From: Tubulanus polymorphus
Taxonomy: Eukaryota; Nemertea; Palaeonemertea; Tubulaniformes; Tubulanidae
NCBI RefSeq assembly: GCF_964204645.1
Contig: NC_134028.1
Span: 7,233,001-7,297,000 of the forward strand
Direction of reading: 5' to 3'
Length of the DNA: 64,000 nt
Shown: in pieces, positions 1-59,200 of the stretch
How the letters are laid out: every line of letters begins with the position of its first letter
Position numbering within the stretch: the first letter of the stretch is position 1
The notes under the pieces: model-generated
What the model saw: only the letters and a program-made list of their open reading frames with translations
The model's database searches: none
Told to the model about the DNA's origin: nothing
Made by a program: the position numbers and the translations under genes

Positions 1-24642
<24,642 letters not shown>

Positions 24643-30930: not shown

Positions 30931-32034
30931 GTAGCCTGAACTTTGAAGCATCATCCTAAAAATCAATTTTTCGAAAAATTTAAGGATCTATAATGCACAT
31001 GCGGTTTATTCAGTACAAACATAAAATCACGCCGCTAACGTAGTATCGAAGATACAGTGAAATTGTATTTGTGAGGCAGATGCATTCAGTACGGAAAACC
31101 TGATCAATTATGAATAAACCTAACGTCATTTCTGCGTGTTATGCGCTTTAATTAAGTAACTAAAAAACACCAATAATAGATTGTTCGATTTTACAATAGC
31201 GTGCTACAGATTGACTAGTCGAGAGATTCGAAAGTTGGTGAAATGAAATATGTACATATAATATCATTATAATAACGGGGGCTGATCGTGGAGGTATTTT
31301 CTGGGGTCCAGACACCTGCCTTTCTCTTGTGGTTGCATCCTTTTTGTCAAAACAAGTGAATTTGCCTGGCGTTGAAAACCAGTTTTTCGTTTTAACGTGG
31401 TCTTTCTGCTTTCAACGCCTCATTGGATTTGGCGATTTGGAAAAATTGGTTTTCACGTGGAGTTAAAACGAAAGGGGTAAAATGCAAACAAAAAATCGGT
31501 GTGATCGAGTGTCATATCTTTTCTAAATATGCCCAAATCAGCCACCATAGATTTAGGACAAACAATGAAAATTACAGGATTACAAAAAAATTCAATACAA
31601 CGGTCGAGGTCCAGTTGAAAAGAAAAGGCATTTGTTAGATAAAGTAGCCATACTGTAGACCACTGGAGTCCCTCCCGGTATTAGATATCTTTGAAGCAAT
31701 ACATGCGAAAGGGTGCAAGTTGCAAGAGGAGGATGTAAAAAATTGGCCGTTTGGCCAGGGTCCGGACCCCAAAAAACCAACCCCTAAAAACCAACCCCCC
31801 CCCCCCGAATTACGAACGAAATTCGTAAATAATAGTATAAAAAGGCAGCTGAAATAACTTTCATACATGGTTGACATATTGCCGCCTCACTCTAGCTATT
31901 TCTACACACGCGCTTTAAAGCAGTGAAGATTATATTGGACTAGCGCCAAATACTTTGTGTTGATTGAAACATAAATGAACTATCATTGTGGGACTTAGAT
32001 ATCACCTGAGACTGTTTCTTTTTTTATTTTCAGA

Positions 32035-33068
32035 ATGTCAGGGGCTGTTTGGGTCGTAATTATCGGCACATGTTTATTTGCAAAATTGTCCATTTACACA
32101 ACGCAGTCGTCGAGCACAAGTCCAGGCACATCCCCAAGTTCACTCACATCGACTGGTCAACAAACCTCAGGGCCAACAGCATCATCGTCGCTCAGTTCAG
32201 CGACTAGCCCGACGAGTTCGGTCTCACAAGGGACATCTTCATCCCCACAGACAACGACAAGTGTACTGCAGACCCAGACGGGGCCGACCCAGACATCGCC
32301 GTTCAGTTCATCGGCATCTAGTGTTGGTAATACGGCAGCCGGTAGTTCATCTTCGACGCTATCGCAAGCTGTATCTCAACCTCAATCTTCGTCTCAATCG
32401 ACGCCTCAATCTAGTTCTACTCCAGCTAGTGTTTCTACGCAAACTGGTTCGACTCCTGCGAGTTCGATCTCGAGTTCATCGCAGTCACCGGTCACCACAA
32501 CCGTCAAACTGGTACGTTCATTCGGTTTGTGAGGTGAAACCATACGTCAATATCGGCAGTATAGCGCGCTGCTTACACGTTCAAAAATTGAATTGAAATT
32601 TTTAATTTTTCATTAGATGAAATGTTACGACTGCGACTCTACGCAGGCCTGCAATCAGAAACAAACTGTCGATTCAACCAAACAAGTTTGCCCTGCCGAT
32701 CACGTATGCGGGGTAAAATATCTACCTGTTTGCTCTTAATATTCGAAAGAAAAAATCCAGAGCTGGATTGTTTAGTTGATTCTGCCTGTTGATTCTGGTT
32801 TTAGGTGATGAAGTACGATGAATTAGATGGCGACAAACAGTTCAACTATACCCGAAGCTGTATCCCGGACGCGGAATGCTACCAGGAGCGACACATCAGA
32901 CAATGCCTTACCCGACTCCTGCCGGCTAAACAACGGCGCTGTTACCACTGCTGTAAAACTGACCTCTGTAACGGACTCATCTTCAAATCTGCGGCCGAGA
33001 AAACTAATCCGCCGCTAGTTTTTACATTCCTAGTAGCAGCCCTCGTTGTAATTGTGATCCAAACTTGA
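32035..33068 (+). CDS. Mucin-like stalk plus three-finger (Ly6/uPAR-type) surface protein
   Basis: Three coding exons (32035-32511, 32617-32712, 32805-33068; all phase 0) give 278 residues. Residues 1-20 form a signal peptide (GAVWVVIIGTCLFAKLSIYT). Residues about 21-155 are almost wholly Ser, Thr, Gln and Pro, with no Cys. Residues 160 to about 258 hold 12 Cys, starting CYDC and ending CYHCCKTDLCN, the closing signature of three-finger domains. The last 19 residues are hydrophobic (LVFTFLVAALVVIVIQT), suggesting a GPI-anchor signal. An acceptor (TTTTTATTTTCAG) sits one base before the ATG, so an upstream untranslated exon is likely. Family members modulate receptors or channels at the cell surface; the partner here is unknown. 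The mucin-like stretch is coded by a single exon, as expected for exon addition. Confidence 0.85.
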
Positions 33069-33785: not shown

Positions 33786-33960
33786 TTTACCTCAGCGATT
33801 AAAAAACAAGCAATCTGATTGGTGCCGCAAGTTTTCGTGCGGCAAAGCTGCGCATGTACCTGCGCACCCGGTCTACTGTGGCAGGGGTTCGTGCCGTGGC
33901 TGAGTGTAGCGATGCCATCAGGTTCGAATCCCTGCCGAGGAAGGATGGATTTAGACTATA
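33786..33960 (+). mobile_element. SINE-like copy, plus orientation
   Basis: It contains GCGCACCCGGTCTACTGTGG and the B-box-like CATCAGGTTCGAATCCCTGC. It lies head to head with the copy at 33655-33785. Confidence 0.6.
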
Positions 33961-35076
33961 GAAAAGCAGGCTAGTGCCGAGCTTTTCTGAGGGGCAGTTC
34001 AATTTCAAGAAAAATGGCATTTTTCTACGAGAAAAGGGGCACTTTCCTATTGTAAAAGGACTGATCTTAAATACGTAAAATACTGTCAGGGTACCTGAAT
34101 AAAGCATTTGAGAATGGATTATTTTTCATTTTCCAAAAAACATGAAAATTGTTTCCAAATTTCGGAGATTTTAGGTGGTTCGTTAACTTCACCCCCCTTG
34201 GAAAATGGACTTTTATCATGGGCGAACTACAGCTTAGTCGACAACATGGACGGAGCTAATAAGCGAACACCCTAAAGTTCGGTCTTATGCCTTTCGCAAT
34301 GTCGGCCATCTTGACGCAGGTTGTCCGAACTGCGACCGCGCTCAATCCCCTGGTTTACGGACTATAGTTCCAACTACCTGATTTTCGGTATGACTTAGTC
34401 AATAATTGGATTGGGGGAGGTGCGATTATGTAAAACGGCAAAATATCGAAGGAAACTAGTTTCCAAGCGGTTGAATTAGCAGAATGGCGTGAATTTCTAG
34501 AAAACAGGTTTATCGAGACAAGAAACACCACCGTAGATCGGTTCAATCCGTTAATCCTACCATATTACATTCTGGAATTTGAAAATCAAGAGATTAAACG
34601 GGATTGTCTCATTATGCCGGGCACTTTTGGACTTACACCAAGGATCTTTAAATGGACCTTTAATTTTTTGATCGCAGTAAAGACACCACCGTCAGAAGAT
34701 TTCACAAGCTGCTTTGGCCACGATATATAATCGGAATCTTCACTTTGCCCGGCGCGGCGGTCATTTTCTGAGTCACTTGATGTTTAACCGAGCAACAAAA
34801 TTACACAGACTCAACTACCTTCTTGGCGCCAAAACTTCTGTCAGGAGTTACCGAAATAGATAATCACGAACGCGGCGACAAATCGGAACGGAGAACCGCG
34901 TGAGCGCGTTATTAATCCAACACTTATGCGCGGTCATCCACGGGTACAAAGGCGTAAAATATATATCGCCCGTGGGAGAGAAATTGGACAGGTTCATCTT
35001 AATATAACCAGTGAAGCCCACTTTTTCGGAGACACCAAGTCTGAATGAGGTGACGGTGAGATTATCACGGTACGCT

Positions 35077-35084
35077 ATATAAGA
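35077..35084 (+). promoter_or_regulatory. TATA box (TATATAAG) of the cystine-knot gene
   Basis: TATATAAG lies 83 bp upstream of the ATG at 35167, so transcription would start near 35110. The spacing suits a short 5' leader contiguous with the signal-peptide exon. Confidence 0.6.
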
Positions 35085-35166
35085 ATGTATCGTCGACGAC
35101 CGTTTGCCTGCATTTTCGACTCATCATTGTTGGGAAATATTGCGCTTCAATCTGCGTCGAACGAAA

Positions 35167-38100
35167 ATGGAATATCGTCTGAAAGTTATATGGATACTTT
35201 CGCTCGTAGGTAAGAGTCTCTTTTGCGTGCGCTCAAGCTTCAATCTTTACTTCGATACGTTCGCTTTTTTCGGCTATTTAAAAAGAAGTCGCTATTCAAA
35301 TGTTGAAATTTGTCGACATAAACTTCTTCTACAATTAAATTTACAATTTTAAATCATGCGAATGATGTTTTTATTAACGGATCAGATTCCAGTCTGTACT
35401 TCAATTGGTTCTATAGCTCATTTTGAAATTACACAGACAGATCTAACCATGGACGTATAAACTAGACTATAATCTAGTCTATACGTCCATGATCTAACTA
35501 ACCCAATGCTGGTAGCTTAATTTTTCGATTATCGGCTTTTGACTGTTTGCACTTAACTCAGCAATCATTCACAGTTTCTACAGTCTTCGCGCCTTTCAAT
35601 TTCGAAAGTGCATTTGAAAAGTTTTCATTTTCCTCCATATGACAATACAAAATATCGAAAAAAATAATCATCGATATTCAATAGACTTCCACGGATAAAC
35701 GGTATTCAGGATTTCTACTGATTTAAAGAAACACTATAATTAAACTAAACCAGTTACTGTTTTCCACGGATCAACGAATTGTCATCATTTATACATTTAA
35801 GCACATCAGTCCTACAACGTACGTCATTACGATTTCCGCCTGTCAGTAATCGCGGTATATTACTCAATATCTCTGCAATCATTTGTAGCTTTATACTGCC
35901 GATTAAGCCGTGTTTACGACTCGATACCAATAATTCTCCATTAAATGCCGTATATTTGTTTTCCGTTATGGCGATAGCTATTACAATTTTTTGACACGCT
36001 ATTTTTGTGTAACGAAAACGTGAGCTTAAGTCAGCTGAAACTAATGCGTTTATGACAAAGATAACATTCCTTTACCGATTCGTGATAGTTATCGAGTACT
36101 AATAAGCCTTTTATTGGATAGAATGATATCAAGCCACAGTTGTTGTGGGTGGTTGGAATTTTATCCCAGCTGATTTTCTTTTTTGAAAAAAGGAAGTAAT
36201 TTCAACCCAAGCTGTGGATCCGTCGGATATATTTGCAAGAAGGTAGAAATTAGGGAGGAAAGTTCGAAAGTTTAAGAAATGAATATCAATAATTCATCAA
36301 ATAGATCAAACAATATAAGACTTAATTGTTTAGTTCGAATATGTTCTTTTTCTGGTCCGAAGGCCCAGCATTTATTTTGTTAGATTGAACTTAGAAATGT
36401 TTTTTTATTTCAACTCTGATAGGATAAAATTCTAACTTAGAACTATGCTAGAAAAGCCACACTGAGATGTAAAGAACAGATGATAAGTTTACACTGATAA
36501 GTGTATAAGACGCTGATAAGACACTACAAGAAAATATCAAAAACGAATTTTATCTACCAAGCATTAAAAAAAAAAAACCAATTTCGAACTCTCACTAGAG
36601 ATCCTCGTCAGGTGTGATCTCAACTCCTGACAATGATCTCCAGTGAGAGTTAAGAACATCGTGTATTTTGATTTTAATTCTTTATAAATAGAATAAGTTT
36701 TTAACTTTTAAACTATGTATATAGTAGGATTTTAACGTATTAAAACTATGGAATGACATCATTAAAGTCCATAGATGGAAATATTGAATTTATTCCAAGT
36801 ACTTTGTGATCTTTTTTTTTAATTTTCTAGAACTTATCAGGGCGTATAAACCCATTCTGTACGCTGCCGTTTCATCTGAAGAGGAACGTGATAGCAATGT
36901 TGACAGTTTTATTAATAATCTGATATGCTGTCAACGACAGGCAAAATTAATCAATATTGGACACGGTAAGTATTAAGTCATCACCCAATGAAATACGTTC
37001 CATTAATATTTCGCTTGAAATCACAATATCCGCGATGTTGTAATAAGGTCCCACGATTATAAATTGAATAAAAAGTTCATAAAAAAATTATTGAAAATAT
37101 ACATTTCGGTTGGTTGCTATACCAGCCTTCTTCAGTCTAAAAAGGAAGCGTGTGTGAATCTATAGCTAGTGTGACGCTGGATTTAAACCATTACGATTAT
37201 CATTATCATTATAAACGATTGTTTCATAATTTCAGACAATGATCTGAAACCGGTTCGCCTCGATGTTGGAAAATGCAAAAAATCATGCCACGATAGCAAA
37301 ACGTTCGACTCACAGGTATTAAATGATACAACCGTAATGTTGGCCTTACGTAAACCCATTTGTCTTCATCGGGGTATTTGTGGCATATATTTGATATGAT
37401 TTATGTTACAGATGATAAGCCAGAAATGTCCGCCGTCTTTCAAATGTCGAGCTACTCTGACGTCCGTCTACCGGTCGTTTCTAAAAGATGGCGCGCGAGA
37501 GGTCGACGTCGTTGAAAGCTGCGGATGCACCGAAATTCCCAAATCTTGCGAAAGACAAGAGAATTGGAAGATTTTCTACAAAGGAACGGTTTATCAGAGT
37601 TCGTTAGACGTTGGCCGATGCGATGGAAATTGCGATTCGGGTATTGTGCAGTTTCTTTAAGTAGTGTCCGTTAGAGCTGAATATAGTAGCAAATCACGAA
37701 GTACATACAAGGCGTCTCAGAAAATGTCTGACCGAAGATTTAAGATTAATTATTCATGAACTATAATTGTAACCAATTCTTTGGGGGTAAGGTTGGTAGA
37801 ACGGAATGATTGCTCGAAACGAGGATGGAATGTTGAAATGCAATCATATAAGTCATGCATGTCTAAGCACTACCGTGTTTTTGAATGGCCATGAATTTTG
37901 AATGAACTTGAACCAAAAAAGAGATATAAAAGTATTATTCTATTGTGTACATTTATGATTATTACCGAATCACCTGATCTCCAAATTCGTGTAATTTTAC
38001 TGTGGGGAATGATAAAAAGCACAAATCGAGGGTAGTTTCATTTTTTTTGGTTCGACTTCATTTCAATGGCCATTCAAAAACAGCTAGGGCTCAGCCATGC

Positions 38101-39101
38101 ATGACTTATGATTGCATTTCAACACTCCATCCTCATAAAGCTAAGGTAACACGATGTTTCGAACTCCAAGTAGAGATCATTGTATTTTGAATGATGACTT
38201 TTGCTTTCAAATTCGTATATAGCGGGGTTTATCATAAAATCTATTCCTCACTTTCAAGTGCGACTATTCAACTAAAAACGAGTATCATTATCATCGTTTT
38301 ATTCTATGATCTAGTATCTATATGGTTCTGATTGAAAATGTAAGATGGAAAACGTTAGAAATTTTCGTGGATTTGATTTTTTAGGGAATGCCTGTCGCGC
38401 AACCCGAACATCTTCCGTATCTATTCCTGGACCAAATGGTAAACCTGAAGCCTAAATAATTGTTCTCTTTCGCAAATACTTCTTAACAAGTATTTCTTAC
38501 TAAACAATCACCGAATATCGAGGTTAAATTCCAGTGCATTCCAGTCTACGAAACTGCTTTTGAACTAGTAGAGCTTATTACTCAAAGCATATTTCTTTTT
38601 GTTTTTAAGGAAAAAACTGCGTAGAAGTAATCAACAGTTGCTCGTGCGTCGAAGCGTGCTATCGAAAAAGCAAGATGGCCGTCTTCCGGCACATCGTTCG
38701 AAATGAAACAACAGGATCGGAACGAGAACAGACGAAAGAGATAGACGTCGGGGAATGTGCGGGAACCTGTCCAAATCACTCCGGTTATAAATGCGTAATG
38801 AGGTAGGAATATGCATGATCCTTCGCACCTGTTATACAGTTCCACAGTCGATATTCCTACTTTGGGATTTCACTATGGCAGATGAGGGCCCGCCAGGTTT
38901 TTCTATTAGTTAACCGGTTCAGTCATCGATCGGCTTTTTACTTGTAGATCGAAGACTCATCCCTCTGTCTGTCTGATGTCTCTGAAGAAGCGGCGCAGCT
39001 CTTGCCTCGCCGTGTCCCACACGACACATCGGTTAGCTCACAGCATCGACGGGCAGCATAACCAAGTGATTCTATCGGTCAGTCGATGTGGCTGTCAATG
39101 A
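35167..39101 (+). CDS. Secreted protein with three tandem cystine-knot-like modules
   Basis: Seven exons with consistent phases (35167-35209, 36831-36965, 37236-37315, 37412-37640, 38385-38438, 38610-38802, 38948-39101) give 295 residues. A signal peptide (MEYRLKVIWILSLV) is followed by about 45 residues and three copies of one module. Each starts [IL]DVGxCxxxC (residues 68-77, 151-160, 225-234) and closes with CxC (123-125, 191-193, 292-294); C-[QEY]-R precedes each repeat. The protein ends CGCQ. The layout (x-C-x-x-x-C, central C-R, basic loop, terminal CxC) resembles C-terminal cystine-knot domains of norrin, bursicon and mucins, but spacing differs and I do not recognise a named family. 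It is likely extracellular, perhaps a ligand or antagonist; the BMP gene lies 3 kb downstream on the same strand. That functional link is inference. Confidence 0.8.
35448..35491. repeat. Short palindrome in cystine-knot gene intron 1
   Basis: CATGGACGTAT and ATACGTCCATG are perfect inverted arms around ACTAGACTATAATCTAGTCT. It is a compact hairpin, possibly a mobile-element remnant. Confidence 0.6.
36540..36701. repeat. Hairpin element, TCGAACTCTCACTAGAGATC family
   Basis: Arms containing AAACGAATTTTAT ... TTCGAACTCTCACTAGAGAT face the inverse TCTCCAGTGAGAGTT ... TTTAATTCTTTATAAAT. A close relative is at 43646-43800. It lies in an intron of the cystine-knot gene. Confidence 0.7.
37815..38165. 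repeat. Foldback element in cystine-knot gene intron 4
   Basis: Inverted arms of about 100 bp: the left arm holds GGATGGAATGTTGAAATGCA, AGTCATGCATG and TTTTTGAATGGCCAT. The right arm holds the complements ATGGCCATTCAAAAA, CATGCATGACT and TGCATTTCAACACTCCATCC. It makes up most of the 744 bp intron between exons 37412-37640 and 38385-38438. Confidence 0.75.
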
Positions 39102-41982
39102 TCATTTATTCTTCGGGGTCTAAACGTCGTATTCGTTACGATAATTCAACAGTTTTCGCTAACGAACTAGCTATTCTCTTGTCGGTACTTTAGCCGAGTG
39201 TCTCAGTACAGATACGTATAAAGAGCAAAAGATTGATGGAAACTGGCGGCCGGAAAATAACTTTTGACTTTGATTGGTTAGCGAGCGTAGTCGCATTCGG
39301 CGGTGGATTTATCTAGGATGCCTTGTCTAGTGAGCTGAAACAAATTCGTGGCTGGAATGATGAAAAAAATGTACACATCAGCGTTACTCATCGATGGCTA
39401 TTATCTTTAAGCAGGGATCGAGCAACATGCATGTGCAATATCGTTGATAGCAATTATTCGTTATTCGCGTATTAAATTAAATAAGAAAATTACAGGTTAT
39501 GACGAGGTAATGTAATTTGAGTCGATGGGCATGAGGAGAAGTTACAAACTTGTAAACTGCAATAAAACATAGCCCTGACGCCCATGCAAATCCGAATCCA
39601 CCCATATCTCTATATCTCGTTTATCCGCTTTAACAAAATACGAAGTAAGACTCATTTTGCTGGAGCAGACATAAAGGTGTTTCATATAGATTTTCAGCTC
39701 CAGTCAACTATGTGTGAAATATTACGAACGAGTAGGATGCAGTCAGTATGGAAATTTAAGTTCGGAATCGCAGATTGTAATGTTCTTTTGTGCTCTTTCC
39801 CTGATCCAAATCACGTAGGACTTCTCTAGAGTTCATGTCACAGCAAATGATATATCTAAAATGTGTGTAAAAATGTGAACCGGTAACGTTGAATCGTCAG
39901 TCTGTGTTGTAAAGTATGTATATTGAGCAATAAATATTTGAATTGAATTGAGAATGTGTCCGTTTTCATTGTACTCGCAGCTGCGTACTTGAAACTGTCC
40001 GTTTGGTAGAACACGTTAATGAGGAATGCGTCTTTTCATTCACTGGTGTCGTTTTCAAATCGTAAAATGCCGCCGAATTCTACACCGACAAAAAGTTGCC
40101 GAGCTACGTTTCAGCTGCGAGTTTTGTCTTCGTTTGCCGGTCGATTGCACCCCATCTTCTGCTCGAGCGGGGATTTGTTTGTTTCTGAAATCAGGCGAAT
40201 AATGCGGACGGTTGCTCGTAAAATCGTTTCTTTCCGGCCACGACCTAGATTTCCGTCGAATCGAAATTGAGTCGGTGACGTTGTTGATGCGCGTTGTCCA
40301 CGTTGTTTTCGATTTCTTTTTAGAAGCGCTATTCTATCTATCAATGACCAGTCGACCGCGATATGAATAATATGAATTGAACTTGATTTAGATCGAAATC
40401 CCGTATACCACACACGATGTCGTTCAATGACGAGGGGCCTGAATGATGTCAAGATTGTTCATTATTGCTAAGCAGTGGGGCCTGTTCCATAGTCAGGGCT
40501 TATACTTAAGACCAGTCTTAGACCATCTTAGTTCTATAGCCAATCTAACATTTTAAGAACAGTGTAAGATTTAAGTCTACTTTTGGACTTGCGGAACGTC
40601 CCAAAATCTTTATAATTGTACATGTATACTTGCCTAATCACTCGATTTGAAAATCAGAGAGGCTGAACTGATTGGAAGCTTTCCCAAACAGATCTTGTGT
40701 AGCGTCACCGACTTGAACTTTTGATCTGATGCATCTTCTTTTGCATGGCTAGATAATGTCCATGATCAACTTGAACAACTAGGTTCTTATCTAGTCTAAT
40801 AAGTCCACTATAGGTAACCTAACAACTTAAGACCAGTCTTGAGATCTTGGACCTCTTATGGACTTCGACAATTCTTATTGGTTAATTCTTTTACACGTTG
40901 TCAAATTGAACCACAGCCGACGAGACTTAAGAACCGATTAATGAACAAAATGGTTTTAGCGAGAAATTCCGCACCTGTACATGATAATAATATAATTTGA
41001 GCACATTTTTTCACATAGTTCAGGGTTCTAGGAATGTGCAGAATATACACCGGCGCATTATGACGCGATTCAGAAATGCAAAACGTGCTAAAAGTAAAAT
41101 ATTATCTAGCAGAGTAAGACTGTCGCATTCATCAAAGTCACGTTTAGTTCGCTGTATTGGCTTTCGGGGAATAATAGCAGTTCACATTGATCGAAAGGCC
41201 CGATCGTGCTGAAGTGTTTCTTCCGAACACTGGCTCGTGTCCCGTCGAAGAGGATTTAGTTTTTACAATCTCCGAAAATCGTGACCTCTTGATGTTTACG
41301 CAGGAACTAGCGAACAATCGGACGCGCGATATTCACCGCTCGCACCACATACACCTGCGCGTCCCGTTTTCAAAATCAAGTCAATAGCGAGGAGCTGCCT
41401 GGAAGAGTTTTTCGTTACTAAAAAAACCTCGCTACGTTCGCTTAATTCGCTATTTTTCGTGCGAGCCATGTGCCAAAAGTTCTCGATAAGTTCGTCTTCT
41501 ATCATGCGCACTTGAAGAATTTGTAACTCGATACGGTACGTCTATGCACGGGGTCGATTCGATTCAGATCGTTGCGGTTCTAAAACGGTGGCTACTCGTA
41601 ATAAGAATAATTGGCCTCTTGTGTTGATGAAAAGCGATTAGCGACGAACAAAGCCGAAATGAGTGACGGTCGAAGTGGTTTTTAAGTATCATGCAGGTGT
41701 CAGATGGGGCTGGCTTCGAATCTACTACTTAATCGACGCGTAAGACGGTCGTGACGGCGATCGAGTTCGGTGACTTATCTCGGGCGGTTTTTTGCCGACT
41801 GCAGCTTAGATTTTATATCACCAGAGCGACGCGTGTAATTGGAATCGTCGCGAACATGAAGTCTTAGAGAAGAGGAGAGCGGAAAGATTGAATTGTGAAT
41901 AATATAAACAGATATCGGAGATTGTTGTGAAGTAGAGAAAAAAGATAACAAGATTAAGATCCTATTTCGGGATCACAATACC
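39102..41982. other. Interval between the cystine-knot gene and the BMP-type gene
   Basis: The proximal part should be the 3' untranslated region of the cystine-knot gene (AATAAA at 39561-39566 and near 39930). Around 40490-40870 there is repeat sequence with CTTAAGACCAGTCTTAGA motifs related to 24400-24530. Open frames near 40019-40452 and 41296-41511 overlap on both strands and have no recognisable domain. The stretch just before the BMP leader probably holds its regulatory sequence. Confidence 0.5.
39561..39566 (+). promoter_or_regulatory. Polyadenylation signal AATAAA (cystine-knot gene)
   Basis: AATAAA lies 460 bp after the stop codon. A second candidate near 39930 would give a longer transcript. 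Confidence 0.4.
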
Positions 41983-41990
41983 TATAAAAA
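41983..41990 (+). promoter_or_regulatory. Possible TATA box of the BMP-type gene
   Basis: TATAAAAA lies 175 bp upstream of the ATG at 42158. No intron is apparent between them, so a single contiguous 5' leader is plausible. Confidence 0.4.
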
Positions 41991-42157
41991 CAGACGGAAT
42001 TCTTAGAAAGTGGATATTTCTGTATGTGAGTCCGTGAGGATAAATGTCAACTATATTGATGCGATAATTACGCGGATTTAAACGAAAAAAATGTCGCCGT
42101 CTTGACGAGAACATTTAAGCAAAACAGACATTTGGTGACGCTATTGTTTCGAAGGTG

Positions 42158-45100
42158 ATGGTATCGTGCAGAAATATGATACTGTTGGGACGTTGGTGTG
42201 TGTTTTCTTGTTTAGCGGTGCTGCTATGTGCGGATCGCGTGAGCGGTACACTGCCGAGATATCTGTACAATCGCCTGAACGAAAACCAAGACAATTCGGC
42301 CACGAAATACTCGGAGGCCATCAACAGACTGTCGCAAGTTTTCGAAATCGACAAAGTGCCGTCGATTCGACGCCGCCATAAATCTCCTCCTCAGTACATG
42401 CAGGAACTGTTTAATTCGATCGCCGACGAAGACGGAATTACGCGAACAAAAAGTCCATTCGACGCCAACGTCGTTCGAGGATTTCCTGATCGAGGTAATT
42501 TTTCCATGAAACGATACAGAATATATTATATCTACTACCCCATTCGAATTAAATTTCTACGCTAAAAAAAAAAAACTGTGTATAGAATTTAGTAAAACAA
42601 CGAATTACCGCATAGTTATAGCGCCTCGAAACCTGAGGGAAAATTGACATAACTTATTTCATGTATTAGATATAATGTATATAGCCCTGAACATTCTTTA
42701 CTCCGATATGAATTATGACGTGTCAAGATAAAAAGCAGTAGCTAAGGCGCTCTTTACTACTTTTTTTCTTCGATTCAATTAGCGACTGATACATATATAC
42801 ATACAATAAAGGCAACATTGACCCAATAAAATAAGAATATACCGTTATTTCATTGTCCGCGTTATGTTTTGTATATTGTGCGTATATGTATGCACATTTA
42901 ACTCGCCGATTTTACTTTTGTGCGTATGTATTTTCAATAGCGGGTTCGGATACAATCTATCAATCAAAAGTTACCTAAGTGAATATTTTGTAATCGATGA
43001 ATGAATACAATCGGGCCGACCGGTAAAGTTGACATACCAGACGAGGTCACCGAGGACAGAAAAGAACCTAATTTTGGGGATTTTCGATATCAGTACATGT
43101 AAACTGAAATTTAGGATGTAAAAGTAATGTCATAATTTGTGTATTGTATATTATTGGTTATAAAATGCTATAATTTTCAGCAAAATACACAAACAAACAA
43201 ACAAACATTAATTTTTCATTATTGATTAAGGAAAATAATAGTATACATACGACCGATAAATCAGCAAAGGTCATTATTTCAAATCCTATCTAGGTGGCTA
43301 TTACCTAGTGTATATAGAAACAAAACCTGAATCGTTTATCGTTAAACACGAATTACGAAAACATTTCTTTTACAGATTCTCAACACCAAATGCATTTCCG
43401 CTTTAACATATCATCGTTTATCAAAAGTAAAGAGAAAATCCTGGAGGCGGAGTTTCATTTGTTTAAAATGAGACCGAGGCCGTACCGGCCGTATAGTTCT
43501 CATCGGAGACAAAAGAGGTCGCTTCATCTGTTCGAGGTAAGTCATTCGAAAGTGAGAGTCGACAATATAAACTATCATTAAAATAGTCAAATAAATCTCA
43601 TAGCTAATAACTTTAAAAGCCATTATATACAGAATTTTAGAAATTAAAAACGAATTTTATTCGTCAAGAATTAAAACAAAAATCCAGGACATTTCGAACT
43701 CTCACTAGAGATCAGCTGACACCTGACGATGATCTCTGGTGAGAGTTCGAAACACCATGTATTTTGGTTTTAATTCTTCAGAAATGAAATTCGTATTTTA
43801 TGTCTTAAATTCTGTATACGGTGGCGTTAAAACAAATTTTCTGTTCTCCACGTCTGAGTGGGGCTATTCTAGCACATTTAATATAGTCATTCGTGTCATA
43901 TCTTCGAAACTGATCTTCGGGTAAGATCTGCTCCGCGGGAAAGAAGATAAAAAGGAATTCACATCTTTGTTATTTTCAGATACGAGTTTATCAGGTGCTC
44001 GATGCGGCCAATATGTACTCGCGATCCGGTTCGAAACTACTGGATGTTAGACGTACTAGCGCGCACGGTCACAGTTGGGAAGTTTTTACCGTGAAAACAG
44101 CGGTCGAACAATGGTTGAACAGAAGCTCGCCGAATAATGGTACGCAAAAATTCAAACTTTGTTCAATCAAACACGCGCACGATTTCCCTATGACTGTCCA
44201 TCTTGTAAATGATGTTCGATCATTCCATTAAAACGGGTTTTCCTCCAAAATATTACTCAATTCAGCAATAGCCCGATATATTGATTATTACCTTTTCATT
44301 TTGTCGCAAATCGCTAGGCCATTCCAAGAAGTGAATAAGCTACGCAGAAAACCATCTTGGCAAATTCAAAATTCGATATTGAGGACAAAATTAAAGTTAC
44401 CAAAGTAGACCGATAGAAATGCTTTAGCGAACAGATCATGTTTGATTGTGATGAATAAAAAAACTTAAATTAATTTAAACTTAACTTAAATTATTCTTAC
44501 TTTTCCTTACTTAACTTAACTTTACCCAGCCTTTACTTAAGTTGTTATATTTGACAGGTTTTCTGGTGACTGCCTCGTCTTTAAGCGGAGAACCGCTCAA
44601 TTCGACCATTATCAGATTCGCTCAGCGTGGTCAGCACCACGAGAGCAAACAACCTGTACTGGTTACATTCGCCGACGACGGACGCACCAAGAAAGAACGC
44701 TACTACGCTGATAACAATGGTAAGAATTATTAGATTTTAATTTTATAAAAAAACCCACGTGTAAAGCCACATGGATTTTTTATGTGTACGAAAACAAGGA
44801 ATATTTTAAAGGCTTATGTATTTCGGCTGACTGTTGTAGATATACATGTATTCCGACTTTTGGCAGAAGCATTTATGAATAGAGGAGGGACCGATTAGAA
44901 AATAATCAAAATTGAACTGAAACGATGTGTATATATTCAAGGTCGTATTTCAAGCAGAGCGCTGTCCCCTTTTGCAAATCTTTGGAAAGTGCCCTTTGCA
45001 AATATTATTGTTATATCCTATAGAACTGCCATTCTTTCGGATTTCTCTGCCCCACTAAAATTCAATTGCTAGGTACGGCTCTGATATTCGTCAATTTCAA

Positions 45101-45672
45101 AAATAAATCTTCGAATACTTTCAGACTATGTGGGCATCAATCGAGAGTTCCAGGCGATGGACCCGTCGCGTCATAGAAACGTGTATTCGCGCGTGTACGC
45201 CGAACGAGTGAAACTACTGAACGAAAAATACCACCGATCAGACTCCGCGACGCGAGTCCAGCAGTCGTCGCCGTCGCGCTACCGACAGAAGCGAGCCGCT
45301 CGTTCGACCAAACGCGGCAACAAGCGTTCGATGGACATGAAAATAAGCAACAAAGACGTCTGCGACAAACACGAAATGTACGTCGATTTCGAGAAAATCG
45401 GCTGGTCGGATTGGATTATCTCGCCGACAGGATACAACGCTTTCCATTGCAAAGGGGACTGTCCTTTTCCGTTGGGCCAGACGCAAAAGCCGACGAACCA
45501 CGCGACGGTGCAGAGCATCGTGCACACGCTGAAGATCGGTCAGGGAGTGTCGATGCCGTGTTGCGTGCCGAATAAGCTATTTTCGATTAGTTTACTGTAT
45601 TTCGACGACGACGAGAACGTAATATTGAAACAGTACGACGACATGGTTGCCGCCAGTTGCGGCTGCCATTGA
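42158..45672 (+). CDS. BMP2/4-ADMP-like TGF-beta ligand
   Basis: Five coding exons (42158-42494, 43376-43536, 43980-44139, 44558-44719, 45125-45672) with consistent phases give 455 residues. The ATG at 42158 leads into a signal peptide (GRWCVFSCLAVLLCADRVSG). The prodomain has the TGF-beta pattern (FRFNISS, ILEAEFHLFK, WEVFTVKTAVEQWL, PVLVTFADDGR). Furin-type sites lie at RYRQKR (325-330) and GNKR (338-341). The mature domain has seven Cys from residue 353 to the C-terminal CGCH, with YVDFEKIGWSDWI, CPFPL, TNHATVQSIVH and PCCVPNKL. Those features place it with BMP2/4 and ADMP rather than activins or BMP5-8, but I cannot choose between them. The ligand would be a secreted dimer (the interchain Cys in PCC is present). 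Four introns in the coding region is more than the single one usual for BMP2/4. Confidence 0.92.
43646..43800. repeat. Hairpin element, TCGAACTCTCACTAGAGATC family
   Basis: Arms AACGAATTTTATTCGTCAAG ... TTTCGAACTCTCAC and the inverse GTGAGAGTTCGAAA ... ATGAAATTCGTATTTT, with CACCTGACGATGATCTC in the loop. Same family as 36540-36701; here it lies in intron 2 of the BMP gene. Confidence 0.75.
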
Positions 45673-47264: not shown

Positions 47265-50200
47265 TTATATTTTCAACGGCTTTCGTTCTGAATCGGTCGG
47301 TTTGATAATCGCTAATATTTGACTGTCGGACAGATTCGGTTCTCTATGACTACCGAATCCTTTCTCTATATCGATATTTCCGGTCACGAGCGATTTAACT
47401 TCGTCTTTCTTCTTCTCTTCGGTCTTCTTCTTTTTCTTTTTCTTCTTTTTCTTGCCATCGTCTTCGTCGCTATCTTCCTCATCCTCGGACGAAGTTATCT
47501 CACCCATTACGTCGTCCCCGCCGGCCTCTTTCTTCTTATCCGGGTCGATTCCGAACAGTTGTTTCAAACGCTTTTTGATGAACTCGACCATTTCGTAATC
47601 GTTCGATTGGAGGTCGGTATTTTCCTTGACGACCGCGAACGCGTCTCCGATGATAGTCAAAAAGAACGTCATCAACCCGATGGACACCATGTTGACGAAC
47701 AAGACGAAGAATATCGGTCCGAAAACGGGCGACGTATCCTTCAACGCGTGGAAGTCGAAACTGCCGAGCGCGAACGAAAACAGACTCTCGATCGTCGTGA
47801 TGAAGGTGAAGTAATCGCTCAGATTTCGACCGAAAACGAAGTAGGCGAATTGGCTGAAGGCGAAGAAATAGATGAAGAACGCGACGCTGAATACTTTCAG
47901 CTCTTTAGCGGCGATGTTCACCGTGCTGCCGAGCATTCCCATTCGACGGTTAAATTTGAGGATCTTGATGAATTTGATCGTGCAGAAAAATACGAGGAAC
48001 GCTTCGACGTAGCCGTATATAGAATCGTATAGGGCGATCGTTTGGAAGTTGACGTAATCGGCTGGAACGCAATAGAATACTATAAATTACTCGGGATATG
48101 AGTCCATGGTTAATGTAGAATAGAATAATGTTATGACGAATCTTGGAGTAATCAACAGCTGGATCCAGTTCCATAGTTGTGGACCCAGTTCCACAGTCCT
48201 GTGTAAGGATTTGACTCAGAGTTTACTCATTGAAAATGAACTTATCTTAACTCGGAGTTAACTCAAATTCACAACTGTAGAACCGGGTCCTGAGTCAGAG
48301 TAAACTCTGAGTTAGAATTAGTATTTACAATGAGTTGAGAAAGAACTTAACTCTGATTACTCTAAGGACGAATTAAGGTACCGGTTCAGTGGGTTCAATT
48401 TTTCCTCATTCTGATTGGTCGAATAGCTCGAATAGCTCATGAACTCATTGAATGAGCCAATCAGAACTCGTATCCGGTTATTTTCCGAAATAATCTGAGA
48501 GACCATTTTCAGGTAATCATTTCACTGATCTTTTACTTCGATACCAGAAAAGATTCCCTACAATGATTTTTTATCGAGTACTTTTACCTGATCCGCTTTC
48601 GTGAAGCGCTTGGATAGCCAGGTGAGCGAGAACCTTCTTCATGGCGTACATCGCGATGCCGACGATCGAACCAATGATCGTGCCGAATTCCACTTTATTC
48701 CAGAAACTCTTGAAGTAAGTGAACCGTTCTTGTTTCAGTCGTTTCACTTCTCGGTATAAGAAATACAACACGAACAACAAAAACATAACTTCGAATAGGA
48801 TGACAATGATTCCGAATCCGCCCACGTAGCTGTATAGACGAAATATCTACAATGTAAGAATTGCGCAACAGTTTGCGTTAAATCTAATGTAAAACCTACA
48901 TAGTGGGATGGCTGATAAGGTCATCTGTTTTGGCGGGCGCGCCGGAAATTCAATATTTTTTTCGTTTTAGCGTTCTGATATTCTGGCATCATTTGCATAC
49001 CAGGAATTAAACGTTGTGGCCCAGTCACCATATACATATCTATTGAACCTAGAAATTATAGTTCTGTCTAGTTAGGAACTCATTTGGAAGTGAGATATGC
49101 ATTAGACTGAAATGCAGCACTAAGAATGTTGTGGAGGAGCCGTATATACGTGTCGTGGAGGAGCCGTATAGCCGGTGTCAAATCCGTACTCGTGAAGAAA
49201 AACAGTACTTTGAACTTTTAGCTAATCTTATTTAAAGTACGAGCTTTCGCTATTTCCTCATAGTAGCCTCATCAGGTAAATGAGTGATAAACCCCTGAAG
49301 AAGCTACTATGCACTAGTAGTGAAAGCTTGTACTTAAAAACAAAATGAGTTAACCTTCAAAGTACTATTTGTCTCCAAGATACTAACGTGGAAAACGTAT
49401 ACCTTCTAAAAGACCTACGAGGAAGTTACTTATCTAAACAAACAGATAATGACATTAAAATAGATGCCAATAGCGATGGACAAGATATCTGACAACGTGA
49501 GAAGCAACATTGATAAATCTGTTAAAAACTGGTCAGACTTCGATTCGAATCTGAAACAGACTCACCTTGTGTTCGGTTTTCAGCGCACAGCCACCGGTCG
49601 CCATGAACTCTGCCAATATCACGATCGAAGCGAATAGATTCACGTTCGCGTTGTACAGAGTGAACTCTACGAACACGGCCCGTGTTCCCGTATTAATCCA
49701 ATCCTGATCTTTCAATTTTGCCAGAATCTTTTCGGTTTTCTTTCTCGTGCGGGCAAAATTGACCACGTATCCGCCTCCCTTGTAGACTGCGTACTTGCCG
49801 ATGTATGGCGCGTTCTTCAGTCTAAGGCTGTTCTGGTATACCCAAGGGCTGGTCCGCTGGAACGAGGAGTGATTCAACTCAGTTAGATATTGAAAATTGT
49901 TCTCCTCGTCAGGAGGATCTATGAAAATGGACTGCCAAGAGGTTGTACGTAAGGAAAATCCAGTCTTGAAGGTATCCCATTACATGGAGCCACCTCTATT
50001 TTCAAAATAGCCCTAAAACGTATTTACTTTTATTTCTTTTTTTTCGATAGCAATAAATCTAATTTTCAGATGTTACCGATTTGTCTAGGTTAGTAGCGTT
50101 CTCTTCGTTGGGCGGTTTGATCCAACCAGGTAGATACGGCTGAGCGTCATCGTCCAACCAGCCATATTCATCACGACAATGCTTGATGAGTGGTTTCATC

Positions 50201-53200
50201 GATTTCGGTATAGTACACGTATCTAATGAAAAAAGAGGAATTATCGGAGATGGATTGCAACTCAACTAGCACGGTACGAAGTGGCATATGGTATTAGGGT
50301 GTCTATTCTGCATAAGTACAATTGATCAAACCTTGTTCGATCTGTTGCGGTAATCAGACTGATTACTCCAAGATTAAACAAATGTGAATTCTCAATCGAT
50401 AAAACATTTGACACCCGATGGAGATTCTTGACCACCCTCTATACCTCCCCTGCTATATTACGCTCCTGGGAATACATGTATGATGATATGATTCATCTTT
50501 ATGAAGATTTGATAGAATATTACATCATGATGATAATTTATGTGAATAGAAATTGAGAAAGTTAGCGAGCAACTACAAAGTAATGGTAAGTTATTAAAAT
50601 TCATAGAGGAGCCGTGTTAACCTGGTGTTGAGTCAGTAAAACGTACAGTACTTTATAGCTAAACTATAGTTGATTTGAGATACATTTTACTCTTGATTGC
50701 TTTTAGACTGAAATCTCGTTTCATTTTGGACTGAATTCTCCATCAGCTTTTCGTTCGAATCTACAAATATTATCGCTATTTTCTTGTCTACTTACTCTCT
50801 TTGATTCGTAGCTGTCTAAGTCTCCCCACTCCCACTCTTATCGACTGATAGTTGCCGTCGTTGATACAAAGTGCTTCCCTCCAATCCAAACGGCGTCCGT
50901 TATAATACGGAGGCGCATACAAATTCGGTAACAACGTTTTGTCGATGTATTTCCAAAGCGACGTATAATCTTTGACCTGGAAAAATGGACGAGAAAGAAA
51001 TGGCTTCATTCCGGGAATGACGTTTTGGTACTTTCATCAACAATGTCTGTAAACATCCATCTCCAATCTTTGTGATCATGGTCTACCTTTGATTTACTTA
51101 ATCACCCAATTATCAACCCGTTGACATTCTTCTTAAGATATCAATATCGGGAAAAATGTCGGAAGTGACTTACGATGAATTTATCGAAGAACAAAGTTTT
51201 AGCAGTGTCCCCCATCATAAATCCGCTCGCGCTTCGAGTTTGATAGGACAAGAAAAACAACGTCAATACGAATACGGCATACGACATCATTTCTTTCAGA
51301 ATTTCCTCCATTTTGATTTCCTTTATCCTCAATTCACGCGCTTCCTTGAGAGCCTCGAGATCGGGAGGTCGTAGGTCGTAAGCCGCCATCTTTCTTTGGA
51401 ATTGTATACCTGCGAGTATAGCACGTAATTTGAGTCGTAGTGTAACCGAACATTGGACATCTAAATGATTTCATGAATTGCTTAGAATAAAACAGCGCTT
51501 GGGACTACAATACCCATGAAATAACTTAATTAGTTAACTTGGTGTTAATCTGGTGTAGAATAAATACCACCTGACAGATAGTACTAGTTAACTAGTTTAT
51601 TCGAGGCACGAGCTTTCGCTACTAGAAAGTGCATAGTAGCTCCATCAGGTTAATGATGAGGCTACAATAATGCATTAATGGCAATTGGGTGTATTCACCT
51701 GATGAAGCTTCTATGCACTAGTAGCGAAAACTCGTACTTCAATATAGTTAACCTATAAAGTACTATCCGTCTCGTTGTATTTAGTTAACTTTTAAGAGCT
51801 AAAAGCCATTTTTTTCCTTTTACAAAATTTCATGGCAAAGAAATTGTTTAAAAGCAAGAATTCTGTGATTAATTTTGCCATACGTTCAATGTCGACTGGA
51901 TTTTGTCTAATCAACTCCTCGTCTGGACCCGGTAAATTCGACACTTCCTCGAATTGATCATCGTCGTCTAGTTCTGGTTTTCTCAGAATCATTGATATAA
52001 ACGCGGCCAACAACAGCACCTAAAACAAATAACGTACGCCAAGTAAATAAAAGTAAAGTAGCAGTGACATACGATACCGGCCCGGTAACACAGTTGGTGT
52101 GGGTTCAATAACTGCGCGATATCGTAATGTTCTTGGGCGGACAACTCATCACGCCTCGGACTCTAAAACGATTAAGAGTTTTAGAGTTCATGCCTCGCTC
52201 AATCAAGAGGTTTTGGGTCAGATTTCAAGAGCAGAATGATAAAATATCCACTAGGATATCATATTGTGGTTTCGAACCCTCTACAGTGGCATTGTTTTTT
52301 CAGGCAAGACATCTATCTTCATCGGTTTATGCACGAGGGCGATGGGTAACCGGCCTGACAGGGGACTCTCAAGCCCCGAGTAATAACTGAAAACACTGAT
52401 GCTACGAAAAAAACGTTGAAGACAATTCTTTGGTTTTTTTACACGTCCAGTTTTCTAAGAGGGTCATTTGTTCTGTCAAGTGCACACCGGGGTCAAAGTG
52501 TAATAGACCAGTTTTACTTAACTGAATCTATTGAAATAAACTAAAATCGATTCACATAAAAATCAAAATATATGTGAAACTATGGCAAAATATCATTCAG
52601 ACGCCTCTGGAGTCTTACTTTGATTGGTTGAATGACTATAACCGATTGGAAGAACGACAGGAGGAAAGTTGTCAACCATTCGTTCGATTTTTCGCGGCCC
52701 CATTGCATACTGTACAGGATCGTGAAAAATGCCGAAAGCATCACACTAAAAAAGCACACTGTTAACAGAAAAGATAAATATCAGTTAGTAAAGTAAGTCA
52801 TATTGTAGTATATTTCATTAATGTTAATGCAAACGAAAGTATGTAAGGACCCCAGAGTTACTTGGTTAATTCAACTTATAGGTTTAAAAATCAATACGGG
52901 TTATAGGCCTAACGTTCGTTACCGGAAATAGGCATCAGTTTTCGCGTCAGTCAACTACATTTCAATGAAAATCCGTCGGTTCAAGTTTCCAGTAAGCATT
53001 TCTCAAAAAATTGAGTAAAAGGTAAGTGCGTGTTTTTGAGAAAATGCTTTCTGGAAACGAACGTTAGGCCTATAACCCGTATTGATCTCCATCTAACTCA
53101 TTAGTCAAAAGCTGAACGAAAATACTGAAATCAGATTCAGTCCATATCGGAACATTCGACCAAGTTCTACGTACAGGTCCACGCGACATAAATACACCAG

Positions 53201-56200
53201 TACGGGAGCGTGAACGGCTTTTTCTTCTTTTTGACCAGGTTCTCTTGACCGTTTTCGGTATATTTCCCGGCGTTTGCCGGCTGCTGCAGGCCCAACAAAT
53301 TCCTGACGCTGTCCTTCAATTTCTCCGACTTCGCCTTGTTACCATCAGTCCACAACTTAGAATCCTTGTTGATCGCTTTCCAGTGGTATTTCGACGATTT
53401 CGACGATTGTTTCTGATTGGTTTGGATGATTCTGTTTTCTTTCGGTTTGCACTTTCTGAACAGCGTGACCAGAACAAGATTCGGCGGGAAGACTATCAGA
53501 GTGGTCATAACGCTGATGAATAACTGATGCAGAGTAAATTTGAACGGGCCAAGAGTTAACGAAGAAACCTGTTGAACCCGCTCTTCGCCCTGAATAAAGA
53601 CAAATCAAAACCTTGATTGGTTCCTTGATATTTTGATAAGAAAATGAACTACGTTTCAATTTTGTTATGCGAGTGTAGGTGGTGGGAGATTTTGGCCTTT
53701 TTTGCAACTGGTTCCGGAAGTGACCCACATCGCTTCGTTTAAGCATTGTTTAGTATCGAGTGAGTTGGGATTTGCGTGTGGACGTGCTCTTCAATTAGGC
53801 CCGGGTCAAATTTGAATCGGGTCTGCTCCGTGCCAATCTTGCCCGGGCTAAATCTTCTCCGTGTGATCGCGGCTTATGTACCAAGTAACTACTATCACGT
53901 TCCGTTATGATCTCTGTACTAATTATTTATGCAAAATATATCAAATCAAATCAAATTTCTCGTTACCTTGAAAAACATACAGTTCGAAATCATAGTCAGA
54001 AATAGTAAGGACATACAACAGCTAACCCTCTGAACTCGGGTGAAACTACTCTTAGTTGGTCGACTTAACACCGAAATCCACAGGTGGTCGTTTGTCAACT
54101 TCTTGCGGACGGACGACGAGAACAGGTGCCCGAAACTGGCGAGGTCGTTGAGTCCGGCTACGGGGATAATTCGTTCGACCATACCGTCGTCCTCTTCGAC
54201 CGCTAACCATCGATCACACAGGAAGAAAAATCTATAAGAAATTCAATCATCTTCTTCTTACCGAATGAGATCGTTTGATTTTCGGGGGTGTTTTCGTAGC
54301 TCATGAAGACTATATCACACAGAATACAAGTCATGTAAATGCCCATTTGTTAATCTACAGTGCCCACCATTCATATATCAAAGAGCCCCTCCCCAGGGAA
54401 ATGTCGATAGGCATTATTCATTCAATTTTCAAGGATTCTGACGGGCCGATACGGGTATGTTTGGGTCTATTGCCTCAAATCATTCGAACATTCATCCATC
54501 AAAGATCGATCATTCGAAACCTCGTAATACGTGTTCAATGCCAGTGTAACAGTCGTTAGTCTTTACCTTTCGCCTGTTTGCAAATCAGTGAATTCGATCT
54601 GATTCAAATACCACGAACGATGCTTTCCTTTGCCGGAGTTGTCGTGCCAGATTCGCAAGAACGTCAGTGGACCGAGCGACTGTTCAGAACTCAGTATGTA
54701 ATTCAGGATACTTCCACGAGCGAAATGCTGCAAATTTGTATATGCAAGAAAACGAATGTTCAAAACATCTAAATATCCAAATGAAAATGGTGAAGTTTAT
54801 AAAACCTATACTACAATGCAACTACATGACAATGACCATTCTGATATGTCCTTTCTAAAATTTCGTCCTCACGCTAGACCTAAGCAAGCGGTTCCATAGT
54901 GTAGTGGTTATCACGTCTGCTTTACACGCAGAAGGTCTCGGGTTCGAAACCCGATGGAACCTATGGCTGCCTTTTTTCTGCTGGCTTCACTGTATGCAGT
55001 CAAGCTAGAGACATTTATGACACATATTTGTCTTTTAAATTCCTTTAAAAACAATTCATTTGTCGCATTAGTGTTTTCATAAAACATTCTCTATCTAATG
55101 ATGATGAATTTCTAATAACGTTCGACAGCTATTAGCGTCAAATTGAATGTAGCTTCGCCGATACCACAGTTAAATTTAGCCCATTTTCAATTACCATTCA
55201 ACTACTCTCCAGAACAAATTTCGAAGCCCGATGGTATGATTTGATTCTCCTTTTAAGAAAATCGTTTAGTGATTTGAACTACAATATATCATGAAAATAT
55301 AGAAGTCAATCACCTTTCTCTTGCCATCAGCTAGTTTTCTTACACCAGTGTCTCCGTCGTCTCCTGATAGTATGAAACTGATTTTTGAAGATGTGCCCGA
55401 TTGTTTTCGGACTCCCGTATTCACCGTAATTTGGTAATAGTACCTATCTGTCGGTAGGTTATCTTCCAATGGTATCGCTCCCCACTTGTAAAAGAGAAAC
55501 GCAAAAATGACACAATATTCGTGAAAATGTGGTAAGCTGATATGATATATTTTCAATATGCCCAACTCTACGAAGTAATAGTATTTTTGTCCCTTATACT
55601 GGTCAGAAGAGTTTGGTATCTGCCCAAAAGTCTAGCGTACAGGCCTGTTCGTATTTTGGTAAGAGGTGTCCTTTTATTTGCGATATAAGAGGAGCAGATA
55701 GCTGAAGGACAGAGAGGAATGGAGGAAGTAAGTTTCAAGATGTCCTGTGGTGCCCAACCGGTCAACACGACTACGGGCTAGGTGAAGGGGAGCAGGTGCC
55801 TCGTACACGGGATAGTAATTAACAACGCAAATGTTTACGACCAGCGCGACGATATAACTTTCTTAGTAATTTCTTAGATTCATACCTTGATCAGATCACG
55901 TTTATCTTTATATCTGCACCAGATCAGTGCGATCAGATAGAGACCCAGAATTGAGATTACTGTTCCGAAGACCGCCGCGTTCTCGTTGAGATCTTTGAAC
56001 TTAGACCAAACCGTATTGAAGTCTATCGTGTTCGGCGGGACCACGCAATCTCCCCCAAACGGAGTCAGATGTGCAGATATGCACTCCATTTTTGTAGCCG
56101 TCGTTCGGTTGCCGAGCTATTGCATCAAAAGCAAAAGAAAAGACATGAAAACTAGTAACAATCACTGCGCAACTGGAATGAGGTGATGAAGGATGCATCG

Positions 56201-59200
56201 ACGACGGTGTCGTTAAGTCTAGGGATCGTTCATATTCGTCTGATCGCGACCCAATAATCAAGTACCGACGAAGAAATACTCACGACAACTCCATCAGAAT
56301 ACCATTCGCTATCGTTTTTATTGAAGTAAACGCACTTTAGCGTCACTAGCTGGTAGGAATTTGAATGAAGTCGTTCTTTTATAGGCATAATGACGTGCGC
56401 ACCTGTGCAATGTATAAATATGAACATTTTTTCGAACTCATTACGACTAATGTAAAATTCATCGTTAACAGTGCCTTTTCGCTTTTTGCTTAGCGGTAGT
56501 ACGTGTACATATATATCATGACAGGTTTGGACACAGACAAAATGAACTTATTTGATGTGGTCAGTATTACTTATGTCACAATATCATGTTCAAAAAAGTT
56601 TTTTGAGATCGCTTATTTAAGGTTTCAGGCTAAATTCATTTCATTCCTACGCAATCAAGTCTAAAGGCCAATTTTTTACTAAGAATCCTGACCATTGTAT
56701 TATTTATTTCAAGTGGATCTTAAAACCCCAAGAGGATAGGTCACGTTAAGTGACAGCCAACAAAATCAACCCGAATCAGTAAATTGCCGGTTCAGACTGC
56801 TTGGAAGATTGTTTGAATGAACCGGAACCGAAATTCGCAGTTATGTACTTCGATTTAAACAAAAACTTCTGTAAATTCGACCACCGATCAGACAACTATA
56901 TCTGTACTTCAATTTCCGATTTCAAAATCGAACCCCTGTTTCGCTCCCGGCAGGTGTGGTGGGTTTGTAAGGGACATCGAATCAAAACTAAGTCAAACGA
57001 AATATACCAATCAAATAATTGACGGGTCAATCCCCATTTTAAGATCGAAAAATATAGCTCACCTATGAGTTTGAAACCTATTCGATACATGCCGACCCGT
57101 TCGGCGGCAAACAGATTCCTGTATCTATAATAATCGGCCAGATCGGGAGGATCGGAGTCGAGCGCCACGGATTTCACCACAGGAGTTCTCGCACACTCGT
57201 CGTAGTTCGTATCGTTCGGAAATTCTTGACTCAGCTCCAGTCCCAGGTACAGGGCGCACACTTCGTAGATATCGTCGCTTGCGAGGGGTTTCATGTAGAA
57301 GAGAATAGTCGAGTTGGGTTGAGTAACGTTGACTTTGTGATACTTCCATTCCTTTTTCTGCACGGTCGTGTTGTACGTGTAATTCGAAAACTCCCGAGCG
57401 CCTTTAAACAATAGTTGAAGATATTCTTTCACATTTGTAGAAGTCAGAATGCTTTGTTAGAGGTAAAGATACTAAAATAGCGATTCAGAATGTAATCATG
57501 GTCTAATTAACGAGCGCTGATTCATCTTGATCAGTAATCATCGAGAAATAAATATATAACGATTGGGAAAGTAAAATTGAATATGAAGACACCGGAAAAT
57601 TGGTCAGATAGACAAGAATTATCGTTTAGAATACAATGAAAGGAAATAATTTCACTTTACTTGGCGAGCTATTTTCGATTGCCAATGTTGCCGGTTGACT
57701 CGAGACGCTCCCGTTAGCACTGATGACACTCAAATCGACAACAGGTGTCGACACGGTTGTGTTTCCTTTGGCCCACGAAAATGGGTTATTTTTCAGAATT
57801 ACCATCTACAAAAATGAAGCATGTTCGTTCAATGAAATATATTCATCATTGCAACATTGCGAGGTATTTTGTTTGGTATGGCATATTCATTTTTGTTCAT
57901 GATCCATACATACAATGATCGAGATTATACAGATACGATTACAGTGTATGGTTGTAAAGGATCCAATGCAAGCCAGCTGGCTGTAGTTAGAATAAAGGCA
58001 CTGGACCCTGTGCATGGTGCACATGGGTACACAGTGTGAGAACAAGGTAATCATAATGATGATGATGATAATAGAAATGATAAAAACAATAATACAGCAG
58101 ATTGACGCAGATCAGAAGGATCCCATGCGTCTATAGCTGCGATGATGGTAGTAAACTTTTCCGGCTATAAATTCTGCTACGAGAAAACACCCGATGTTTA
58201 TACTGTTCCTACATCCAACAATTGTAATGGCAGTGAAAAGCAAGAACAGTTACATGGAAAGTTGTGAGTGGAACAGCCACATGTATGCTTCGCCAAAAAG
58301 AGAGATCCAGTGAGAGGGTACCATGGGCTCACGAGCTTTTCTAAAACTGGACACGTACCGATGCTGAGGTGTCCGGTGATTCCATGTCCATCTGGAAACC
58401 TCCGCCATCCCCAGATGTCTCGGTTGATCCGTTAGTAGCGGAAGGTTTAACGAGCTTTACTTGCATATTCTCGGATTTGATATCGACATCACCACCGCCG
58501 TCGACTTGTTTCTTGGTCATTGTTCCAGCTATACTTGTAAGTCCATCTGTAACACCCGTTGTGACGGCTCTTTCCTTCAAGAACGAGAAAAAGCGATCGT
58601 ACGATGAAAACAAGATGGAACGCTGTACGAAAAAATATTCAGAATATAGTGTTGACTTTCCGGTAGGTTAAAGAAGAATACATGCCACGTAACCCCTATC
58701 TAGAATATCAAATCCATGAAAAGATTATTCCAGGGTGCCCCGGACATTCGGGATCGGAATCTGGATGTATAATTCGAAAAAAATTACAAACCGTTTCGAT
58801 GATTTTTTCTTCGTCCGCTTTGAGGTGGACCATCTTTTCGTCCAGTTCGTCTTTCAGGTCATCCGGATGCATATATACCAACGATTCGCGTAAATCTTCT
58901 TCCGGAAACACTAAACAGTAGGTTTCCTCCAACTGGAAAATGATACGTTACAAGAAAATGAAAAAACGTAACTTTCGAATATATGCACACGTTCTTACTG
59001 ATCTCAATAATGCGACCTCAATAAAGAACGAGAATATCAATAAGGGTGTATGCGACAAATAAGGAAAATACAGTTAATTTCCCTGTTTTCGGCTTAAATT
59101 TGAAGTAGGTGAAAACCTGTTTTCTTTGAATTGAAGCCACGGGAACCACTTAACCTCATTTTCAAGCCGGCTTAGAATTGGCGATTTCGGGTTATTATGT

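Follow-up and report, generated by a model that had tools for sequence, protein, structure and literature searches.

The window examined here, a 64,000-nucleotide stretch of the genome of the nemertean Tubulanus polymorphus, carries on its plus strand a gene whose seven exons splice into one open frame of 888 nt including the stop codon and whose six introns all have GT-AG borders. The 295-residue product contains 23 cysteines, its N terminus is hydrophobic and was judged by eye to be a leader, and possible N-glycosylation sites lie at residues 212 and 236. The exons and the surrounding consensus elements are as follows.

35076..35082, plus strand: TATA-like element TATATAA, 91 bases 5' of the start codon (consensus match only)
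35167-35209, plus strand: exon 1, residues 1-14; start codon and hydrophobic core, likely signal peptide
36831-36965, plus strand: exon 2, residues 15-59; end of the leader and C47/C48 opening module 1
37236-37315, plus strand: exon 3, residues 60-86; LDVGKCKKSC of module 1
37412-37640, plus strand: exon 4, residues 87-162; remainder of module 1 to CGC and opening half of module 2, containing LDVGRCDGNC
38385-38438, plus strand: exon 5, residues 163-180; CRAT stretch of module 2
38610-38802, plus strand: exon 6, residues 181-244; CSC closing module 2 and opening half of module 3, containing IDVGECAGTC
38948-39101, plus strand: exon 7, residues 245-295 and stop; remainder of module 3, KKRR at 258, terminal CGCQ
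39929..39934, plus strand: candidate polyadenylation signal AATAAA, with another at 39561 (consensus match only)

The seven in-phase exons and 295 residues of the original prediction were confirmed in silico by the splice borders and by a joined frame free of stops. Judged from these features, the gene with its three modules looks real and its product is probably secreted. Two of the introns contain palindromes: in intron 4, nested inverted repeats at 37821-38134 (28 nt at 96%, 34 nt at 79%, 20 nt at 90% and 17 nt at 100%) resemble a palindromic mobile element, and smaller palindromes are found in intron 1 at 35448-35491 and 36587-36651.

The cysteines of the protein are arranged in a repeating pattern. 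The motif DVG.C...C begins at residues 69, 152 and 226, and each copy is followed by a CxC (residues 123-125, 191-193 and 292-294), exactly as had been claimed. When the sequence was shuffled 100,000 times with the 23 cysteines kept fixed, 99,907 shuffles lacked the motif, 93 contained it once and none contained it twice. Module limits were chosen at residues 47-126, 131-195 and 196-295, and the modules were aligned with one another as the original prediction had proposed. By this measure module 1 clearly resembles module 2, with an alignment score of 67 that was reached by none of 2,000 cysteine-fixed shuffles. Module 3 appears more diverged and only weakly similar to the other two beyond the motif, since its scores of 43 against module 1 and 43 against module 2 were reached by 30 and 19 of the 2,000 shuffles, respectively. 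A run of basic residues, KKRR, lies within module 3 at residues 258-261. Ten columns are invariant in the three-row alignment, namely the C and R of C-x-R, the D, V and G of the motif, the Cys pair of CxxxC, one Arg and the Cys pair of CxC. Module 2 had been described as lacking several of the cysteines of module 1; this holds for the C47/C48 doublet and for one of C92/C98, whereas C184 of module 2 has no counterpart in module 1.

The growth-factor cystine knot fold is marked by an arrangement of an N-terminal Cys, CxGxC, a mid Cys and CxC. The modules fit this arrangement in that each has a Cys near its N terminus, a half-ring of the form CxxxC, one Cys in the middle and a CxC at its end; the full CxGxC is present in modules 2 and 3, with CKKSC at this position in module 1. 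Thus, CxGxC is found in two of three modules and CxxxC with CxC in all three, and the disulfide pairing would be that of the knot. Three tandem cystine-knot-like modules are the best reading of these cysteines. In all three modules an intron follows the CxxxC half (residues 86, 162 and 244); the phases of these introns differ (0, 1 and 2), and their positions therefore provide no evidence of module duplication.

Some 3 kb downstream of the gene, the plus strand also encodes a TGF-beta-family precursor, which comprises the following open frames.

42119..42562, plus strand: probable first exon of the ligand (signal peptide and start of the prodomain), no Pfam match alone, borders approximate
43318..43578, plus strand: probable prodomain exon, no Pfam match alone
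43914..44228, plus strand: TGF-beta propeptide (PF00688, 9.8e-09)
45085..45669, plus strand: mature TGF-beta domain ending in CGCH (PF00019, 6.9e-36)

No Pfam match at 0.01 was obtained for the seven open frames of at least 75 aa that either separate the gene from the ligand or overlap the ligand's first exon (39566-42390), nor for three open frames upstream of the gene pair at 33802-35120.

Sequence identity of the ligand amounts to 51% with BMP2, 56% with BMP6 and 55% with BMP7. PF00019 was detected at 16 places in the genome, among them L008 on contig C1, 86% identical to the BMP2 of the PDB, and L021/L015 on contig C7, 79% identical to BMP6; because of these identities, we take L008 as the BMP2/4 and L021/L015 as the BMP5-8 of this genome. 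Since the closer matches to BMP2 and BMP6 are encoded on other contigs, the neighbor is, on these identities, a third BMP-type ligand, neither the BMP2/4 nor the BMP5-8 of the genome. A tree was built from 12 rows, consisting of nine of the 13 apparent ligands of the genome together with BMP2, BMP6 and BMP7. In this tree the neighbor paired with the ligand L019/L016 of the same genome (support 81/82), and strong support was attained by none of the inner branches. L019/L016 terminates in CACR and is presumably BMP3-like. Among the best 60 of 64 PDB matches to the neighbor there was no ADMP. By elimination, and by the stretches TNHATVQSIV, PCCVPNKL and VILKQYDDMVAASCGCH, which we take to resemble ADMP, the neighbor looks like an ADMP-like ligand.

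Elsewhere in the genome, the BMP2/4-like L008 and the BMP-type L010 lie about 8 kb apart on the same strand of contig C1 (25.967 and 25.976 Mb), a proximity that recalls the BMP2/4-univin linkage. Two very divergent TGF-beta-like domains, L018 and L020 (50.6 and 48.9 bits), adjoin on contig C2 at 9.8595 and 9.8614 Mb. Contig C6 carries eight Hox-type homeodomains within about 250 kb. One of them (L024) is followed by KLNGP, which we take to be a mark of Lox5, and two others (L029 and L028) by a QAIKELN or QQIKELN tail, presumably the mark of Lox2/Lox4; both marks are assumed to be lophotrochozoan. The Hox genes thus indicate a lophotrochozoan, the group in which the original prediction had proposed to look for the motif. 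A search with mitochondrial COI, made to place the animal, gave no match at E 1e-5.

Polycystin-type pieces flank the gene pair on both sides on the minus strand, at about 1-21000 and 47268-63998 of the window, and by eye represent two tandem genes.

14163-16493, minus strand: PKD and REJ
47268-48086, minus strand: PKD_channel
49536-49979, minus strand: Polycystin_dom
60858-63998, minus strand: PKD repeats

On the plus strand at 31999-33065, a Ser/Thr/Gln-rich open frame is followed by one with a CD59/Ly6-like C terminus (PF25152, 0.00049, below the cut-off), and the two perhaps encode one GPI-anchored mucin-like protein. At 22561-22906 the dinucleotide AT is repeated in tandem 172.5 times.

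Same-strand adjacency to an ADMP ligand is a genomic hallmark of pinhead. This tandem placement is present here (42119 to 45669, plus strand), with the ADMP call made by elimination and by likeness of sequence stretches. According to what Imai et al. are said to have described in 2012, Pinhead antagonizes Admp in Ciona, the tandem order of pinhead and admp extends from arthropods to vertebrates, and the enhancer of admp is disturbed when pinhead is transcribed. In 2021, Itoh et al. reportedly found that Pinhead is a cystine-knot-containing protein and that it binds Admp. We consider it highly probable that the gene is a spiralian pinhead orthologue situated directly upstream of a same-strand admp orthologue and that its product is a secreted ADMP-binding protein with three knots. 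Pinhead is the most likely identity because the next gene recognized downstream on the plus strand is an ADMP-like ligand and Pinhead is a known partner and regulator of ADMP in the formation of the back-belly axis; the grounds for the orthology are the position of the gene, the pattern of its cysteines and its single-copy status.

Passages of the literature bear on this reading. Pinhead is described there as an ADMP regulator (PMC11226491), and ADMP is named among ligands (PMC5979292). In zebrafish, passages of PMC8034876 and PMC8753366 state that Pinhead and Admp mutually repress each other's expression and that each promotes Chordin breakdown, and they liken Pinhead to TGF-beta/BMP ligands. 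The Xenopus Pinhead is listed among FGF-regulated genes in a part of PMC2659300, whereas the pinhead cited in passages of PMC4571091 and PMC6710290 is a different gene, one-eyed pinhead. The literature searched, which lacked some of the primary Pinhead papers, yielded no paper on Pinhead and the cystine knot together, and Pinhead was absent from the titles and the starts of the abstracts of publications on tandem, two, three or multiple cystine knots. A three-module description of Pinhead may be new in print.

The Pinhead of chordates (Pnhd; Xenopus, zebrafish and Ciona) and the protein described here would share secretion and cystine knots, reported for the former and predicted for the latter, as well as the tandem placement with Admp that is reported for the chordate genes. 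They differ in that the present gene is spiralian; in its product, three modules can be delimited by DVGxCxxxC and CxC. The original prediction regarded three such modules as an unrecognized architecture, open to refutation by an already described family. The protein probably belongs to one, Pinhead, as suggested by the ADMP-like neighbor and by the role of Pinhead as ADMP regulator. Against this assignment stand the grouping of the ligand with L019/L016, the missing match to any knot model or PDB entry, the weak likeness of module 3 and the weak codon usage detailed below.

The protein might alternatively be an undescribed, lineage-specific secreted factor with three cystine knots that lies beside an ADMP-like ligand by chance. 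This would be in line with the database searches, as the whole protein had no match at E values up to 10 in Pfam (where program filters remove most matches above about 0.1), none in NCBIfam and none by phmmer in the PDB, where a three-row profile of the modules also found nothing; the Pinhead orthology, moreover, was reached here by routes other than sequence comparison. However, such a factor would leave the pinhead hallmark of same-strand adjacency to chance, and no lineage-specific relatives were detected in the genome. A tblastn search of the whole assembly (267.8 Mb, E up to 10), in which five first-look candidates were scored and a far-diverged copy could be missed, returned six places, all six of them exons of this same gene; the very short exon 1 was not among them. 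Within these limits the gene is single copy, which we assume to be a trait of Pinhead. Prokaryote genome contigs gave 41 pattern matches and viral contigs 14, with no relatives in either set, as expected for an animal gene. A lineage-specific factor beside the ligand by chance appears improbable to us.

The original prediction had also likened the modules to CTCK domains, and a divergent cystine-knot antagonist of the CTCK/DAN/bursicon type in which one domain was triplicated would account for CxGxC with CxC in two of the three modules and CxxxC with CxC in the third. Norrin, gremlin, sclerostin and bursicon indeed share the ring signature of CxGxC and CxC. To our knowledge, however, such antagonists carry one knot per chain, in contrast to the three modules found here. 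Pfam includes CTCK-type and DAN models, and neither the whole protein nor any of the three modules matched them; the only match of the modules searched singly was an irrelevant one of module 1 to HisG (0.088). The likeness to knots thus held at the level of cysteines, which three knot-like modules fit best, but no knot family was reached by sequence, and we regard a triplicated CTCK/DAN domain as very unlikely. The TGF-beta/BMP ligands likewise share a knot-type cysteine pattern and a terminal CGC with the protein, which differs from them in having three modules per chain and no match to PF00019 or PF00688.

Finally, the modules depend on the exon joins, because each of them spans at least one intron. 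The joined frame contains no stop, whereas the remaining forward frames have 19 and 13 and those of the reverse strand 8, 11 and 11. GC content amounts to 47% in the exons and 31-44% in the introns, compared with 40.0% in the whole window. Codon usage gave a weak signal: the true frame averaged 0.113 bits per codon and the next frame 0.115, and four of the seven exons scored below zero in their own frame. A wrong gene model, in which the modules come from separate or differently spliced transcripts, would suit this weak codon usage and exon joins known from DNA alone, but is scarcely credible given seven exons in phase with canonical borders, a frame without stops and the difference in GC content between exons and introns.

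If the gene is indeed pinhead, its head-to-tail order with the ligand gene makes interference in cis possible, and transcription of pinhead toward admp may disturb an admp enhancer, as is said to happen in Ciona. The protein itself would most likely bind the ADMP ligand extracellularly. Such binding could limit BMP signaling or could support it, as reported for zebrafish, where passages of PMC8034876 and PMC8753366 assign Pinhead a BMP-like, supporting role. More speculatively, and with considerable doubt on our part, a ligand-binding architecture of three BMP-like knots per chain, placed head-to-tail with its own ligand, might be conserved from spiralians to chordates and could engage the ADMP dimer unlike any single-knot antagonist. 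According to passages of PMC13121700, every lophotrochozoan sampled, apart from specific annelid lineages, possesses admp, and in a brachiopod ADMP is expressed ventrally, along with chordin; by text count, the word "pinhead" is absent from the text counted of that paper. A spiralian pinhead-admp pair, if true, would make it testable whether the regulatory pair of Pinhead and ADMP dates back as far as the back-belly axis of bilaterians.
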